A program made the translations under genes and the position numbers. The notes under the pieces were generated by a model. It had not been told where the DNA came from and searched no databases. It saw only the letters and a program-made list of their open reading frames with translations. From contig NZ_SOAG01000004.1 in the NCBI RefSeq assembly GCF_004364575.1, positions 62,001 through 126,000 of the forward strand: a DNA stretch of 64,000 nucleotides, read 5' to 3'. This document shows positions 57,953 through 64,000 of the stretch, piece by piece; positions within the stretch are counted from its first letter, which is position 1; every line of letters starts with the position of its first letter. Source of the DNA: Myroides indicus. Lineage in GTDB: Bacteria > Bacteroidota > Bacteroidia > Flavobacteriales > Flavobacteriaceae.

Positions 57953-59089
57953 ATGTCAAACAATCATATTCAACTCAATACTATTGAAGAAGCCATCGAA
58001 GATATCCGCGCAGGAAAAGTAGTCATTGTTGTAGACGATGAAGACAGAGAGAATGAAGGCGATTTTATTGCTGCCGCAGAAAAAGTAACTCCGGAGATGA
58101 TTAATTTTATGGCAACTCATGGTAGAGGTCTTATTTGTGCTCCTCTCACCCAAAAGAGATGCAAAGAATTAGACTTGCACCCTATGGTTACTAATAATAC
58201 TGTTTTACATCAAACTGCATTTACCGTATCTGTTGATTTAAAAGGACATGGATGTACAACAGGGATATCTGCGTATGACCGAGCAAAAACAATTGAATTT
58301 TTAGTAAAAGACGAAACTAAACCAGATGACCTAGGTCGTCCCGGACATATTTTCCCTTTAATTGCCAAAGAAGGCGGAGTTTTAAGACGAACCGGACATA
58401 CCGAAGCTACTGTAGATCTGGCTCGTCTTGCCGGTTTTAAACCTGCAGGGATTTTAGTAGAAATTTTAAACAAGGACGGCTCCATGGCAAGATTGCCTCA
58501 GCTTGTTGAAGTAGCTCAAAAATGGAATTTGAAAATAATTTCTATTGAGGATTTGGTGGCTTACCGCATGAAACACGACAGTCTGATCCAAAAGAAAGAA
58601 GATTTTGAAATAAAAACCAGATTTGGCAGCTTTAGATTGCGAGCATATTACCAAACAACCAATAAACAAGTTCACATTGCACTAACCAAAGGTACATGGA
58701 ACAATGGTGATACTGTTTTGACCAGAATCAACTCAGTTACCGGCAATGATGATGTATTAGAAGCACTAAGCGGCAAGCTCGACCAAAGAATGGAAGCCTC
58801 TTTCAAAAAAATTAACGAAGAAGGAACTGGAGCAATTTTATTTATCAATCAGGAAAATCAAACTTCAAACTTATTAAAACGCTTAGCTCTTATTAAGGAA
58901 GAACACAACGCAACCTTAGATATCAATACTCCTAAACTGCCGAGTGATTCAAAAGATTTTGGTATCGGAGCACAAATTTTACACGACTTAAACATCAGTA
59001 AAATAAAGTTGATGACAAACTCCGGACACACTAAACGAGTAGGAATGATTGGTTACGGTTTAGAAATAGAAGATTATATTACCTATTAA
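57953..59089 (+). CDS. ribB: 3,4-dihydroxy-2-butanone-4-phosphate synthase with degenerate GTP cyclohydrolase II domain
   Basis: 378 residues. The N-terminal ~205 residues are RibB with [16 protein letters not shown], the THGRGLIC segment and [15 protein letters not shown]; RibB makes the four-carbon unit of riboflavin. The C-terminal part aligns with GTP cyclohydrolase II ([14 protein letters not shown], then [20 protein letters not shown]) but has none of the three zinc Cys (C..CxC) and lacks the SLRCDCG segment. It should not make the pyrimidine precursor, so a separate RibA is expected elsewhere. Confidence 0.87.
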
Positions 59090-59222: not shown

Positions 59223-59307
59223 GGAGAAATGGCAGAGTGGTCGAATGCGGCGGTCTTGAAAACCGTTGACTGTAACAGGTCCGGGGGTTCGAATCCCTCT
59301 TTCTCCG
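59223..59307 (+). tRNA. tRNA-Ser (anticodon TGA)
   Basis: A 7-bp acceptor stem (GGAGAAA with TTTCTCC), the anticodon loop of the CGGTCTTGAAAACCG arm (anticodon TGA), a long class II variable arm and the T-loop GGTTCGAATCC give an 85-nt tRNA. No CCA is encoded. An integrase gene follows, so its 3' end is the likely attachment site of the right-hand island. Confidence 0.95.
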
Positions 59308-59351
59308 CGAAATTATAAATAGTAACTTTTTAAAAGTTATTAAAAAAGCAC

Positions 59352-59390
59352 AAAACCTATGATTCACAATGAGTTATAGGTTTTTTCTTT
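59352..59390 (+). terminator. Terminator downstream of tRNA-Ser
   Basis: Arms AAAACCTAT and ATAGGTTTT form a 9-bp stem followed by T-rich sequence. Confidence 0.6.
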
Positions 59391-59415
59391 TTTAGGGGTA
59401 TCACATTATTTTTAA

Positions 59416-59510
59416 AAGTGCACCCAAAAAAGTTACAGATTCGGTGCACAAAAAAATTTCCTAGTGATGCGCACCTTTGAACTTAACGAACCCTTACGCC
59501 AAAAGGCGCC
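59416..59510. repeat. GTGCACC repeats near the integrase gene, candidate attachment/arm sites
   Basis: GTGCACC at 59418-59424, its inverted form GGTGCAC at 59443-59449, and a variant GCGCACC at 59469-59475. A small hairpin CGCC-AAAA-GGCG follows at 59497-59508. All lie between tRNA-Ser and the integrase start, where arm-type sites are expected. The function is inferred. Confidence 0.4.
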
Positions 59511-59580
59511 AGAGAGTTTTAAACTGTGATTTTGGAACGTTTTAATTCGACATTTATTAATATTTAAAAACAGTTGAATT

Positions 59581-60900
59581 ATGTTAGAAAAACAGTTATC
59601 AATTAATTTCTTTCTCAAACCAAGTAGGAAGAAAAGTGATTTAAGAGGTGTTTACCTTCGAATCACAGTAGATGGTATTCGCAAAGAGACTTCTTTAAGT
59701 CATAGATGGGATATCAAAAGATGGAACCAAAAAGCAGGTCGTGCCAATGGCGCTAAAGAAGACGCTAAAACGCTAAACTACATCTTAGATACAATCGTAT
59801 CTAAGATTACCAAGTACAAATTAGAGTTATTAAGTAATGAAGAGCCTATTACTGCTTCTGTGCTTATGGATTATATCCAAGGCAAAGGAACTAGTAGGAT
59901 TAAAGTTTTAGAAGAATTCCAAAAACACAATGATGAAGTTTTTAAACTAGTACCTAAAGAGTATGCTATTGGAACACATGAAAGATATGTAACAGCTAGA
60001 TCGCATGTTGGAGAATATATCCGTTATGTATATGGTAAAGAAGATATAGAGTTTAGAGAACTCAATTATGAGTTTGTAATTGGCTATGAGCACTATTTAA
60101 AGACCGTTAGAGCGTGTTCTAACAATACTGCTATAAAGTATATCTCAAACTTCAAGAAGATTGTTTTACGGGCTGTTGCGAAGGGAATAATATCTTCTAA
60201 TCCTTTTGTACAATACAAACCTAAAAAGACGAAACTCAATAAGAAACCATTAAGCAAACAAGAGCTATCTATTTTAGAAAACAAAGAGTTTCAAAATGAT
60301 AGAGTAAGTACGGTAAGAGATGTATTTGTATTTCAGTGCTATACTGGTCTTGCTTATATTGATGTATTTCAACTAAAGAAAAGCGATATTACTAAAGATG
60401 AGGAGGGCAATCTGTGGATTAGAACCAACAGACAAAAGACAGATGCTAATATAACTATCCCTCTACTTCCAAAAGCAATAGAGATAATGGAAAAGTATAA
60501 AAATCATCCTGATTGTATTGGTAAAGATATCGTTCTTCCTGTTCGTTCTAATCAAAAGATGAATGAGTACTTAAAAGAGATTGCCTCACTATGTGAGATA
60601 AGTGAGTTAAACACCCATAAAGCAAGAAGAACTTTTGGAAGTACTGTAACTCTTGGAAATGGTGTACCTATTCATGTAGTAAAGGAAATGTTAGGACATC
60701 ACTCTGTTAAGCAGACTGAGGAATACGCTCTAACAGAAGAAGAAGCTATTAAGACTGAAATGCAGATTTTAAAAGGTAAACTTGAAGGGAAATCAAATAA
60801 GCAAAGTGATAATTACACAGATTTACTAGAGAGTTTAAAAAAGCTAAACCCTGATAAATTAACTCAACTAACTAATTTTATTAATCAGTTAAATGGATAA
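59581..60900 (+). CDS. Tyrosine recombinase (integrase) of the tRNA-Ser island
   Basis: 439 residues. An arm-binding N-terminus (FFLKPSRKKSDLRGVYLRI), a SAM-like core-binding domain (about 110-210) and a catalytic domain. Box I reads CYTGLAYIDVF with Ala258 where most relatives have Arg; His346 and Arg349 (THKARRTF), His373 (LGHHS) and Tyr382 (EEYAL) are kept. The CTnDOT integrase is known to lack the same Arg and is active. The gene sits 273 bp from tRNA-Ser, pointing away from it, and probably catalyses the island's insertion and excision. Confidence 0.9.
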   Translation: MLEKQLSINFFLKPSRKKSDLRGVYLRITVDGIRKETSLSHRWDIKRWNQKAGRANGAKEDAKTLNYILDTIVSKITKYKLELLSNEEPITASVLMDYIQGKGTSRIKVLEEFQKHNDEVFKLVPKEYAIGTHERYVTARSHVGEYIRYVYGKEDIEFRELNYEFVIGYEHYLKTVRACSNNTAIKYISNFKKIVLRAVAKGIISSNPFVQYKPKKTKLNKKPLSKQELSILENKEFQNDRVSTVRDVFVFQCYTGLAYIDVFQLKKSDITKDEEGNLWIRTNRQKTDANITIPLLPKAIEIMEKYKNHPDCIGKDIVLPVRSNQKMNEYLKEIASLCEISELNTHKARRTFGSTVTLGNGVPIHVVKEMLGHHSVKQTEEYALTEEEAIKTEMQILKGKLEGKSNKQSDNYTDLLESLKKLNPDKLTQLTNFINQLNG

Positions 60901-60905
60901 TAGGA

Positions 60906-60974
60906 ACTCCCTTAAATTCTCTACACTTTCTAACAATTCAACTGTAGTTTTGCAAACAAGAAATTTAAGGGAGT
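60906..60974. repeat. 13-bp inverted repeat downstream of the integrase
   Basis: ACTCCCTTAAATT (60906-60918) and AATTTAAGGGAGT (60962-60974) are perfect inverted copies around a 43-nt loop. It begins 5 bases past the integrase stop. A terminator would have a shorter loop and a T-run, so another role is possible. Confidence 0.6.
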
Positions 60975-60982
60975 CAATTTCC

Positions 60983-61028
60983 AACCTTTTTAATGAGTAA
61001 AAGTAAACTTCTACTCATTAAAAAGGTT
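60983..61028. repeat. 17-bp perfect inverted repeat overlapping the end of the excisionase-like gene
   Basis: The arms are 60983-60999 and 61012-61028 (core CTTTTTAATGAGTA), with a 12-nt loop. One arm includes the last codons and stop of the gene ending at 61011. No T-run follows on either side. Confidence 0.7.
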
Positions 61029-61265
61029 CATAATATCTTTTCTGTTGTAGTAATACGAACCAAGTATTTTGCGATACTGCAATTTACCACTAATGCGTAG
61101 TGTTTGTAGTGAAGCTGGCGAGATACTGAGTAATTGTCTTGCTACTTTAGCCTTTACCCATTCAAGAGAAGTTTCTTTGTTTTGCTTGACTAATAGATCT
61201 TTTAACTCTCCAATGATTGTTTGAGCAAACAATCTCAAATCGTCTTTTGTAATTTGACTTTCCAT
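61011..61265 (-). CDS. Excisionase-like HTH protein
   Basis: 84 residues. The C-terminal half is a winged HTH of the MerR/Xis type (ARQLLSISPASLQTLRISGK then LQYRKILGSYYYNRKDIMN), and the N-terminal half is a helical stretch rich in charge. Bacteroidota elements often place such a protein next to the integrase, where it directs excision or regulates it. It is convergent with the integrase. The two long inverted repeats lie between. Confidence 0.7.
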   Translation of the reverse strand: MESQITKDDLRLFAQTIIGELKDLLVKQNKETSLEWVKAKVARQLLSISPASLQTLRISGKLQYRKILGSYYYNRKDIMNLFNE

Positions 61266-61404
61266 GATAGTTATTTTTTTGGTTAAACAACTAAACTACA
61301 ATCAAAACAGATGATACTCTATTTTTGGCAGTTTCAAAGTCTATTTGGCTTTATCTTACTAAGTTTAAGATAATATACGAGTTAGAATTATTACCTTTAA
61401 TTCA

Positions 61405-62616
61405 TTATGTTTTTTTATAATTCAACCTATCTTTTATTCTTCTCTTGCAAAAATCAGTAGCCAATAAGGTTATAACATCTAAAATTTTAAGTAAGGTGGT
61501 TTCAATATTTAAATCGGAATCATTTATCTCTATAGCTTGTTTATTAGCAATATATTGGATTAGTCGATCTTCTACTTCATATATAAATTCCCTAACATCA
61601 ATATCGTGATACAGTATAGAAAGAGTTATATTGAGGTTTTCACTTTCTGCTGTACTTAGATATTTAGGTTTCCAAATACGCAGTTCCTCTATGGAAAATG
61701 GACAATTAATGTAGTCTAAAATATCAGGATTAAGCCAAGTAGTTGGATAATAGTCAGTTTGTAGTAGTACCCATCCTGTTTGTAGCAACCACTTTAAGGT
61801 AAATCGAAAACTAGTAACATTTTGTATAAGGAAAGTATCTTCTTTTTTTGAGTTAGAATATATCACTTTAATAACTTCTTGAATTTCATAATAACTGTTT
61901 GTATTGAAGATAAGAATGATATTCTCAAAAGGATTACTGGCTTGGTAACCTTCACATGGACTGCCTAAATAGTGTTCCCATACGTGATTATTTGGGGGTA
62001 AATAACTGTAATCAGCCCAGCTTATAGCTAAGTAGCTAGCTTCAAATAATTTCAATATAGCATCATATACCTTATAAGGAGGAGGTCCCATAATATCAGT
62101 GATGTCCTGATTCCTCTCTAAGGCTTCTTTCCAATGATCTAACATCTTTATCCAAAGGGATAAGTCCATTGGTTTAAAAAAGTCTTTAAATACTTTTTGA
62201 AAATTCTGCACTTCTTTGATGCTTAGCAAGGTATAAGAATCCTCTAAATGAGCAAGATGATGATTGATTTTGAAATCCTCTCTAGAGCGATACTCAAACA
62301 CACAGCGATAAGGATTTTTAACCCATGGAATATCAATCCAATCATTCCAATATTTGAGTTTTTTTTTCTGATGAATAAAAAAATGACATCCCATAACCAT
62401 CATTTTAATATCTAGTATAAAAGGGATTTGTCGCTCACAAATTTGCTTTCGTTTTTTTTTGCTAGTGACTGATTCATTAAAGCGTTCTAGTTCTTTTAAT
62501 AGTTCTCGAAAAGATTCTAAAGTATATGAACTCAAGGCTTCGAATATACCTCCATTGAGTAAGAATTCAGGAATTTCTAATTTGTCGTCAGGTGGGCACC
62601 AGTAAATATCTTTCAT
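61405..62616 (-). CDS. Uncharacterised 403-residue protein of the tRNA-Ser island
   Basis: 403 residues that I cannot place in a family. It has many aromatic residues (WIDIPWVKNPYRCVFEYRS; NNHVWEHYLGSPCEGYQ; YYPTTWLNPDILDY), no signal peptide, no clear transmembrane helix and no known catalytic motif, so it should be cytosolic. The C-terminus is Ile/Leu-rich and helical. It is divergent from the XRE regulator at 62912. Its position suggests an accessory function of the island; none is shown. Confidence 0.6.
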   Translation of the reverse strand: MKDIYWCPPDDKLEIPEFLLNGGIFEALSSYTLESFRELLKELERFNESVTSKKKRKQICERQIPFILDIKMMVMGCHFFIHQKKKLKYWNDWIDIPWVKNPYRCVFEYRSREDFKINHHLAHLEDSYTLLSIKEVQNFQKVFKDFFKPMDLSLWIKMLDHWKEALERNQDITDIMGPPPYKVYDAILKLFEASYLAISWADYSYLPPNNHVWEHYLGSPCEGYQASNPFENIILIFNTNSYYEIQEVIKVIYSNSKKEDTFLIQNVTSFRFTLKWLLQTGWVLLQTDYYPTTWLNPDILDYINCPFSIEELRIWKPKYLSTAESENLNITLSILYHDIDVREFIYEVEDRLIQYIANKQAIEINDSDLNIETTLLKILDVITLLATDFCKRRIKDRLNYKKT

Positions 62617-62911
62617 AATGTTTTTTTTTAGTTCAACTTATATATTTTAGTTTTCTTAGTTTAAAAAGTGATAGTCCATCTCTCTTTGTAGACAATTCGA
62701 GAGTAGTTCCTTTAGTAAATTTTTATTGTAATTGTGTTCAAAGTTGTTCACTTTCTAAAGAATAAAAAATTCTCGAAAAGGATATTATATCCTTTGTATT
62801 TGCATTCTATTTTAGATAATTTAGAATTCTATTTATTTTTAATAACTTTACAATTCAATCTTTTTAAATCATTGGCTTTATTTTTGAGCCTTCTTAACTC
62901 AGCTATTAATT
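62617..62911. other. Divergent intergenic region between the 403-residue gene and the XRE gene
   Basis: 295 AT-rich bases. A near-palindrome AAAGGATA-TTA-TATCCTTT lies at 62777-62795, and a -7 element TATTTTTG lies at 62879-62886 on the plus strand. I see no convincing gene; the short plus-strand frame from 62734 overlaps the XRE start and looks like chance. Confidence 0.5.
62777..62795. promoter_or_regulatory. Palindrome, candidate regulator site
   Basis: AAAGGATA and TATCCTTT form an 8-3-8 palindrome between two divergent island genes. A dimeric XRE-type repressor could bind it; this is inferred from position and symmetry. Confidence 0.35.
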
Positions 62912-63319
62912 ATGGAACATAAAATACATCAAGGAAGAAATGTAAAGCGTTTTAGAGAAATGCTTGGAATCAAACAAGAAGTTCTTGCTTTTGATTTAGG
63001 AGATGATTGGAATCAAAAGAAGATATCTCTACTTGAACAGAAAGAAGTTATTGATAATGCTTTATTACAACAGATTTCTAAGGTGCTTAAAATACCTGTA
63101 GAAGCAATTGAGAATTTTGATGAAGAGCAGGCTGTTTATAATATTGCTTGTAATTTTTCTGATAATGCTATCAATAATAATGGCTTAAATATTCAAAATA
63201 ACAATTCCATTGATAAGATAGTTCAACTTCACGAAGAAAAGATTGCCTTATATGAGCGTATGCTAAAGGAGAAAGACGAAATGATGATGCGTTTAGAGAA
63301 GCTGATTCAAACTAAGTAA
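62912..63319 (+). CDS. XRE-family HTH protein with C-terminal coiled coil
   Basis: 135 residues. The HTH covers about 8-70 (NVKRFREMLGIKQEVLAFDL, then NQKKISLLEQKEVIDNALLQ). An Asn-rich linker (NNNGLNIQNNNSIDKI) leads to a C-terminal coiled coil (LHEEKIALYERMLKEKDEMM) that should form a dimer. Such proteins are common on Bacteroidota integrative elements and may regulate them. It is divergent from the 403-residue gene and could control it. Confidence 0.75.
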   Translation: MEHKIHQGRNVKRFREMLGIKQEVLAFDLGDDWNQKKISLLEQKEVIDNALLQQISKVLKIPVEAIENFDEEQAVYNIACNFSDNAINNNGLNIQNNNSIDKIVQLHEEKIALYERMLKEKDEMMMRLEKLIQTK

Positions 63320-63387
63320 ATGGAGCATTAATAAAAATATGAAAACTTAACCTTATAGTTAGGCTTTTTTTGTGTCTATATAAAATA

Positions 63388-63430
63388 GAAAAAGCTAGAG
63401 TACATATAATTTTGTACTCTAGCTTTTTTG
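63388..63430. terminator. Strong bidirectional terminator after the XRE gene
   Basis: A perfect 13-bp stem (63391-63403 with 63414-63426, core AGCTAGAGTAC) with A-runs before and a T6 run after. Confidence 0.85.
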
Positions 63431-63603
63431 CTTCTTGTATTCTGGTAATTAATACTCTTTTCTCTTTACCAATTTTGCGACCTTCGGGAGAAAAACGAGT
63501 GGTCTTTGTTCCTGTTCAAATTTTTCAATTTGTAAGGACAAAGACACATCTCGATAATTTAAACGTCATTTCGCTGTGGATAATAATCCATCACTTTTAC
63601 ACT
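63431..63603. other. Intergenic stretch of the island without a clear gene
   Basis: About 170 bases between the terminator and the gene ending at 63604. A plus-strand frame runs through it from 63370, but it crosses the terminator and shows no family pattern, so I regard it as chance. Confidence 0.4.
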
Positions 63604-64000
63604 TTACTCCAAAGAAGAGTTATCTCCCAATTCTTTTTTTGTAAATGAGTATATCATATCACAGAATGAGTCTAATTCTTTAATGTCTTCTACTGTAGAA
63701 TCAACTATAAAATCATTTGGTTTAGGGTAATATTTTACAAAACAGTCCTTATTAAATAGCATTTTTTTCACTGTGGGTAACTCATTTATGTCTTTATAGA
63801 CCGAGGGATAACACCACTGAATTAAATCCCATAAATAATTTAGATCAATAATACTGGAAATAAAGTCAAGTTTTCTATAAATAAGTAATACAAGTGATTG
63901 TTGTATGACAAAATGATAAAGCATCGCTTGTGCTTCACAGAATGTTGCATTACTATTTTCTTTAATATTCAAATAAGCTCTATTAAGTGATTCTAAGCAT
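63604..64000 (-). CDS. Uncharacterised protein, 5' end cut by the right edge
   Basis: The minus-strand frame stays open from the stop at 63604 to the window edge. A TTG at 63972 gives a 122-residue form, but the frame continues upstream (CLESLNRAYLNIKENSNATF) without a stop, so the gene likely begins beyond 64000. It is helical and aromatic-rich (YHFVIQQSLVLLIYRKLDFI, then NYLWDLIQWCYPSVYKDI), with an acidic C-terminus. I do not recognise the family. It belongs to the tRNA-Ser island. Confidence 0.55.
   Translation of the reverse strand, partial: CLESLNRAYLNIKENSNATFCEAQAMLYHFVIQQSLVLLIYRKLDFISSIIDLNYLWDLIQWCYPSVYKDINELPTVKKMLFNKDCFVKYYPKPNDFIVDSTVEDIKELDSFCDMIYSFTKKELGDNSSLE

Follow-up and report, generated by a model that had tools for sequence, protein, structure and literature searches.

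Which biological function might be encoded by two proteins without a recognisable family that lie on both sides of a small regulator gene behind a tRNA gene? This question was raised by the right end of a stretch of 64,000 nucleotides of the Myroides indicus genome (C4:62001-126000 of assembly G000, which comprises 3.06 Mb in 79 contigs), which is called the window below. A prediction made from this sequence alone had described, behind a tRNA-Ser gene, an integrase, an excisionase-like protein, a 403-aa protein, an XRE regulator and a further gene cut by the edge, and had regarded this order as the front end of an integrative element. Analyses of open reading frames (ORFs) and of matches to ARAGORN and Pfam showed that all of these genes were present; the gene at the edge encodes a protein of 567 aa. 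Judged by its target site and its genes, the region forms the left end of an integrative element in the 3′ end of tRNA-Ser(UGA), beside the element's own integrase. The trio of the 403-aa gene, the XRE gene and the 567-aa gene is, by the gene neighbourhoods compared here, one module and represents a recurrent cassette of the Flavobacteriales. The reading that we prefer, tentatively and with somewhat less than even confidence, is that of an integrative element of 32.5 kb, probably mobilizable, on which the trio would be a divergent version of this cassette and an XRE-repressed conflict module, serving defence or immunity control.

Insertion site and limits of the element

The integrase gene adjoins its putative target tRNA-Ser, and a direct repeat was present at both ends of the element. 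A search to the right for the 3′ end of the tRNA gene, which had been proposed as a check, revealed a second copy of the attachment (att) core at a spacing of 32,486 bp. None of 200 shuffled sequences matched the 23-base att pattern at equal tolerance. Directly behind the second copy there was an upstream block similar to the first one and a second integrase (L003:13567-14904) that is very like the first, and the end of the contig (C4:155475) comes soon after it. Because the att repeat is followed by a similar block and a further integrase, the sequence was read as a 32.5-kb unit that is joined head-to-tail with at least the beginning of another; by these landmarks the island is delimited and is the first unit of a tandem array. 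A third copy of the core is found on contig C22 within a stretch matching the end of tRNA-Ser, and there is no integrase in the 1.5 kb behind it.

The insertion site was compared in six genomes, i.e., five out of 40 searched, plus G123. In G123 and G020 the place that follows ribBA and tRNA-Ser(tga) is occupied by an integrase of the same type; no integrase was found within the examined flank in G018, G022, G024 and G011 (the G018 flank contains a run of N). In G123 a second element with integrase, excisionase and XRE genes was detected behind another tRNA-Ser(tga), with an identical core. The original prediction had named conservation of the region at this place in all relatives and the lack of a second att repeat as grounds against an element; the repeat was found, and the site is not occupied in all relatives. 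The predicted front end of an integrative element was thus borne out by the tRNA 3′-end repeat, by the tandem second integrase, and by integrases of the same type at tRNA-Ser(tga) in G123 (twice) and G020.

Recurrence of the cassette

Profile searches revealed a recurring cassette, which consists of an XRE gene with a nearly invariant DNA-binding part, a gene for a protein of about 180 aa (small family), and a gene for a protein of about 540–590 aa (large family). The small-family profile matched 41 places in 28 of 150 genomes of the same genus, G000 not being among them. At least 30 of these 41 places were situated within 2.5 kb of a listed XRE gene, compared with 0.47% expected for a 4.5-Mb genome, and at least 19 were arranged head-to-head with a listed XRE gene within 300 bp. 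In 14 of the latter the gap between the matches was 178–183 bp. For the large family, at least 18 of 25 places were within 4 kb of a listed XRE gene. All of these values are lower bounds, since linkage was measured against 150 listed XRE places. An XRE/unknown pair with a palindrome between, which the original prediction had singled out, is therefore a recurring layout, and the palindrome core was also found upstream of other XRE copies (see below). This linkage makes it improbable that the XRE is an independent family, self-spreading or selectively retained, and that the orphans are chance neighbours acquired with islands, an explanation that would fit the high XRE copy numbers and the four XRE loci that stand alone between housekeeping genes.

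A parallel to the trio was read in G123, where a related pair lies between the excisionase gene and mob-like genes. Three proteins, one lipoprotein-like, one of 187 aa and one of 588 aa, are encoded there between the XRE and the mob-like genes; the slot near the XRE gene that corresponds to the 403-aa gene holds a protein of about 180 aa of the small family. Pairs of XRE and small protein without a large gene in the examined flank also exist. In alternative layouts, a 539-aa large protein or separate proteins of 283 aa and 253 aa are present, the XRE is in part of a more distant type, and the end is formed by a protein of about 110–130 aa or by one that is cut by the edge of the locus. A protein of 110–131 aa recurs behind large proteins (L077:3046-3396, L079:2359-2691, L082:2995-3390); two of these were scanned and had no curated family.

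In an order-wide search, the small family was found in 58 of 395 genomes, 42 of them belonging to one other family of the order, possibly the Weeksellaceae. Four of ten regions extracted from that family were read. Two of them, from one genus, contained XRE, a small protein, an unrelated gene on the opposite strand, a second small protein and a 544-aa large protein; one contained the XRE plus a single small protein; and in one a small protein was present and no XRE was found among ORFs of at least 100 aa. No description of the XRE/small/large cassette was found in the accessible portions of the literature on Myroides elements, type VI retrons, HEPN, DUF5712 and Chryseobacterium XRE.

The regulator and its upstream region

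Relatives of the XRE were detected at E ≤ 0.001 in 63 of the 150 genomes of the genus, and a single genome had as many as 27 scored copies. An alignment of 17 copies chosen from several genomes revealed that columns 1–77 are nearly frozen (mean entropy 0.37 bits), in comparison with a linker of 1.39 bits and a C-terminal end of 0.73 bits, which by eye reads as a coiled coil. This is thus a regulator with many copies per genome and a DNA-binding part that is almost unchanged across two bacterial families. Among 50,697 phage records no relative of the XRE reached E ≤ 1e-3. In plasmids one distant XRE relative was found, and no relatives of either orphan or of a large relative; in viral contigs there were no relatives of either orphan, of the two family profiles, or of the XRE. 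Two arrangements of other genes around XRE copies were noted in passing, i.e., a tandem pair of further paralogues, each about 175 aa long and from a different uncharacterised family, beside an XRE (L057:8748-9867), and two XRE copies around a wHTH-like gene with lipoprotein-like genes beside them (L054:7918-10202).

The XRE had been predicted to be divergent, which holds with respect to the 403-aa gene and does not hold for the 567-aa gene, which is convergent. The palindrome expected between the XRE and the 403-aa gene was found as well (Table 1). A block of about 110 bases is common to the regions upstream of XRE copies. The palindrome core GATATNATATC occurred exactly in five of 14 such regions, versus 0.11% of random 100-nt pieces of the window, and with at most one mismatch in nine of 14, versus 0.27%; in these comparisons the motif had been chosen after the alignment was seen, the copies are related, and the upstream regions (152–182 nt) are longer than the random pieces. 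The nine sites span −131 to −96 relative to the start codon, and the remaining five regions (two of G123, one each of G058 and G579, and that of a solitary G096 copy) have two mismatches. The site therefore appears to be conserved, and it is a candidate operator, which opens the XRE to a direct binding test. A second upstream feature, the leader box, was also evaluated as a covarying dyad, and this was rejected: arm shuffling reached the observed pairing in 6700 of 20,000 trials, and hence the box is reported merely as conserved. The inverted repeat downstream of the XRE gene is probably the shared terminator of the convergent XRE and 567-aa genes.

The partner proteins

The 567-aa protein and the 588-aa protein of G123 are homologues (21% identity over 568 columns, 7e-25, nearly full length), and the assignment of the former to the large family is firm on this alignment. 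The original wording of no recognisable family was correct for the curated libraries searched; relatives were nevertheless found for the 567-aa protein and the XRE. A profile built from three large proteins matched 25 places in 19 of the 150 genomes, many of the matches being weak or partial. When halves of three groups (A, B, C) were compared by profile, the N-terminal halves of A and B (93.9%) and the C-terminal halves of A and C (95.1%) were strongly linked; the link was middling for the N-terminal halves of B and C (61.4%) and weak for the C-terminal halves of A and B (24.4%), the C-terminal halves of B and C (29.7%) and the N-terminal halves of A and C (0.2%). The link of the 567-aa protein thus appears to be firm to its closest members, and the halves of distant groups seem to be unevenly linked. 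No internal duplication was found when the halves of large proteins were compared with hhalign. A search with the 567-aa protein matched three of 299 genomes of the same family, i.e., G000 itself and two weakly matching loci (L007, L008) that were rejected, because one overlaps a different type of gene and the other runs through stops.

A faint similarity to HEPN proteins was detected in two large-family members, in one at 4.3e-4 in the N-terminal half (20.9 bits versus a cut-off of 22, PF05168) and in the other at 0.097 in the C-terminal half. The alignments of large proteins contained no invariant R or H, and no conserved Rx4-6H pair was seen, so that a binding role fits better than RNase action. 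The large protein would thus probably act by binding RNA, a nucleotide or a protein rather than by RNA cleavage; on a reading of the sequences by eye, its alpha/beta parts might be degenerate forms of a nucleotidyltransferase or ferredoxin fold. Several library matches of large-family members were discarded as chance (PADLOC TIR-TM at 0.001 and GajB at 0.0035, Pfam BAF250_C at 0.0045), as was the Hs1pro-1_C match of the 567-aa protein (0.025), and one locus from a search for HEPN proteins turned out on reading not to be a large-family member.

The 403-aa protein matched Pfam and NCBIfam at best with E = 0.035 and no PADLOC profile at E ≤ 1. Among 150 same-genus and 299 same-family genomes it was present in G000 itself only, and among genome contigs elsewhere it had one match, 99% identical, in a record of Myroides odoratimimus. 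For the small family, the libraries tried likewise gave no convincing match (best 0.021).

The trio in Myroides odoratimimus and the cargo of the island

The record of M. odoratimimus CCUG 39352 (L005) contains a near-identical trio and mob-like genes, which are followed by a type VII-A2 retron. The different cargo behind the trio in the two genomes indicates one backbone with different defence cargo. Segment by segment the trio is 96.8–100% identical in both, with the exception of the XRE linker, which has 61.8% identity (63 of 102 columns; L005:7300-7704 versus window 62912-63319) between near-identical flanks. This divergence looks like allele exchange or rapid change within one gene. The identity of MobC is 95.0%, and the similarity breaks off sharply within the excisionase gene, close to where the M. 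odoratimimus contig ends.

In G000, a MobC-like gene and a gene for a DUF5712 protein, which we take to be MobB-like and thus a mob gene, lie behind the trio. A Pfam scan of 25 island proteins revealed no conjugation family; the HerA protein alone gave P-loop cross-matches to such families. By its gene content, the 32.5-kb element is probably mobilizable. The further cargo is listed in Table 1; in addition, the island holds a small XRE gene with a type II methylase-like gene. The profile match of the type IIG locus begins at profile position 402, and its start therefore probably lies in the neighbouring stretch. The inner mobile element encodes its own integrase, a DUF5906 protein, a primase-like Toprim protein and a MobA/VirD2 relaxase (PF03432, 3.1e-23); no second att core of its own was found with the pattern used.

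Table 1. Features of the island and of the related M. odoratimimus locus. Plain numbers are window positions; position p of L002 is window position 58500 + p.
Feature	Position	Strand	Remarks
tRNA-Ser, anticodon tga (tRNA-Ser(UGA)), attachment site	59223..59308	+	ARAGORN
att core ATCCCTCTTTCTCCGC	59293..59308	+	last 16 bases of tRNA-Ser
Tyrosine integrase, 439 aa	59581-60900	+	Pfam SAM_5, Phage_integrase, Arm-DNA-bind_5
Excisionase-like HTH_17 protein, 84 aa	61011-61265	-	26.8 bits versus Pfam cut-off 27.0
403-aa orphan	61405-62616	-	no curated-library family
Palindrome AAAGGATAT-T-ATATCCTTT, operator candidate	62777-62795		contains the core GATATNATATC
Leader box GGCT-N9-AGCC upstream of XRE	62874..62890	+	conserved
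XRE regulator, 135 aa	62912-63319	+	HTH_3 15.9 bits, below cut-off 23; PADLOC HTH_VI 4.6e-7
Inverted repeat between runs of A and T	63389..63428		read by eye
567-aa protein, C-terminal part in the window	63604..64000	-	complete at L002:5104-6807 (-), to window-scale 65307
DUF5712 protein	L002:7751-8716		2.7e-81
Transglycosylase/transpeptidase, penicillin-binding-protein-like	L002:9248-10735		island cargo
putAbiC (Pfam)/AbiP (PADLOC)-like protein	L002:13325-14464		beside unknown genes
Type IIG restriction-modification locus	L002:17951 to L003:2894		
SIR2 protein and HerA defence pair	L003:2936-5981		
Inner mobile element	L003:6184-13161		opposite orientation, just inside second att copy
Second att copy TTCCCTCTTTCTCCGC	C4:153779-153794 = L003:13279-13294 = window-scale 91779-91794		15/16 identical to ATCCCTCTTTCTCCGC
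Type VII-A2 retron (reverse transcriptase and DUF3800 partner) in M. odoratimimus	L005:865-2701		

Proposed function of the trio and alternatives

A defence, immunity-control or maintenance role of the XRE/unknown pair, as originally suggested, is plausible from its context. For the conflict module that we favour, the following mode of action is conceivable. An XRE dimer on the palindrome between the divergent genes would repress both its own gene and the divergent gene, and would thereby keep expression of the module low. The variable XRE linker or the partner proteins might sense either an intruder or the element's state, and once repression is lifted, the level of the partner proteins would rise. 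The targets of the large and small proteins could then be the intruder or the state of the element itself. Within this scheme defence is favoured because of the cargo, the exchange of modules between islands, and the genes next to one related cassette, which by eye look restriction-like. If this is true, the cassette would be a new entry in a group in which many defence genes probably still lack a name.

Several observations weigh against this reading. The 403-aa protein was not matched by the small-family profile at E ≤ 0.001, and hhalign gave a probability of 0.7% for its relation to the small family; in addition, its C-terminal half shows a weak resemblance to the family (shuffles were as good in 13 of 5000 cases), and its N-terminal half lacks such a resemblance (504 of 5000). 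It is therefore called a positional counterpart, and its homology to the small family is tentative; for the idea that it is a doubled small protein, which arose on reading, the shuffle test gives weak support in the C-terminal half alone. The XRE is not tied to the module, since some copies are solitary amid core or housekeeping genes (L064, L066, L067, L069; L064 and L069, from two genomes, have the same neighbours), and the second integrase–excisionase–XRE element of G123 lacks the pair. To the limits of the motif comparison named above is added that, when six-base inverted repeats were sought blindly in the common upstream block, 11 of 14 copies did not exceed shuffled sequences; for the three best copies, 16, 46 and 71 of 500 shuffles were as good. 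HEPN was matched at E ≤ 1 in two of 20 large-family members, in none over the cut-off, and not in the 567-aa protein, and both matches fall in different halves of the protein. No solved structure in the Protein Data Bank (PDB) matched either family profile at E ≤ 1, the best match of a single sequence had an E-value of 0.15, and structures predicted without an alignment were uninformative (mean pLDDT of 35.1 for the M. odoratimimus copy of the 567-aa protein and 34.2 for the 403-aa protein).

The alternative that survives best, which we nevertheless consider unlikely, is housekeeping of the element, in which the XRE and the two proteins would control excision, copy state or transfer. The position of the module between the excisionase and the mob-like genes in G000, its position next to mob-like genes in M. 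odoratimimus, the equivalent position of the related pair in G123, and the fact that the G123 element without the pair still has an XRE are in accordance with it. However, parts of the cassette also occur where no integrase or mob gene was recognised by eye in the examined flank, beside restriction-like genes or between core genes. Less likely still would be an addiction module of the toxin-antitoxin kind, with one orphan harming the cell and the other, or the XRE, neutralising it, so that the island is retained. The compact divergent layout, the mobile context, the faint HEPN similarity and a weak match of the XRE to an MqsA-type antitoxin model (0.025) would agree with it, but no conserved HEPN catalytic pair was seen in the alignments, often only one of the two orphans is present, and the proteins are big for a toxin-antitoxin pair.

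An extended version of the favoured conflict-module reading is possible, if on the doubtful side. It would comprise an unnamed conflict system of the Flavobacteriales, in which modular partners are controlled by a single XRE family whose DNA-binding part is frozen, whose operator is shared and whose linker is hypervariable. A genome would carry up to 27 or more copies of this XRE, the islands would trade cassettes with small and HEPN-like large partners, and the linker might be an identity tag in a genome-wide network of immunity control.

Comparison with known systems

The HEPN-T protein Cpin_6617 of Bacteroidetes lacks Rx4-6H and is fused to a dyad of ferredoxin domains, according to the portion of the source available (PMC3710099). 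The large family resembles it in the faint PF05168 similarity of two members, in that no conserved Rx4-6H was seen, and in alpha/beta parts that, by eye, alternate with helical ones. It differs from the HEPN superfamily in that two of 20 members touch the profile, and from HEPN-MNT (type VII) in that the HEPN cut-off is not reached and Rx4-6H was not seen.

A second likeness concerns type VI retrons, as the XRE matches the PADLOC profile HTH_VI, presumably named after their HTH protein, with residues 8–75 (28 bits; the profile has no curated cut-off), and another copy does so at 8.7e-7. In contrast to such retrons, no reverse transcriptase was present among the island proteins scanned, which did not include every small ORF, and the retron in the cargo of M. 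odoratimimus is of type VII-A2 and not of type VI. Divergent repressor-operator pairs occur in phage and element immunity, and although no phage structural gene was recognised in the island, the trio shares with them the XRE, the palindrome and the divergent gene.

The element as a whole was compared with what we take to be its group, the NBU/CTn-like integrative mobilizable elements of Bacteroidota. It has in common with tRNA-integrated elements of this phylum the integrase with Arm-DNA-bind_5 and SAM_5, the excisionase-like HTH_17 protein, the att repeat of the tRNA 3′ end and the mob-like genes. It differs from the NBU/CTn-like elements in its tandem array, in the inner mobile element, in the trio at the front end and in its defence cargo. 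Taken together, the island is of an ordinary mobile-element kind, yet it points to a recurring, unannotated gene cassette.

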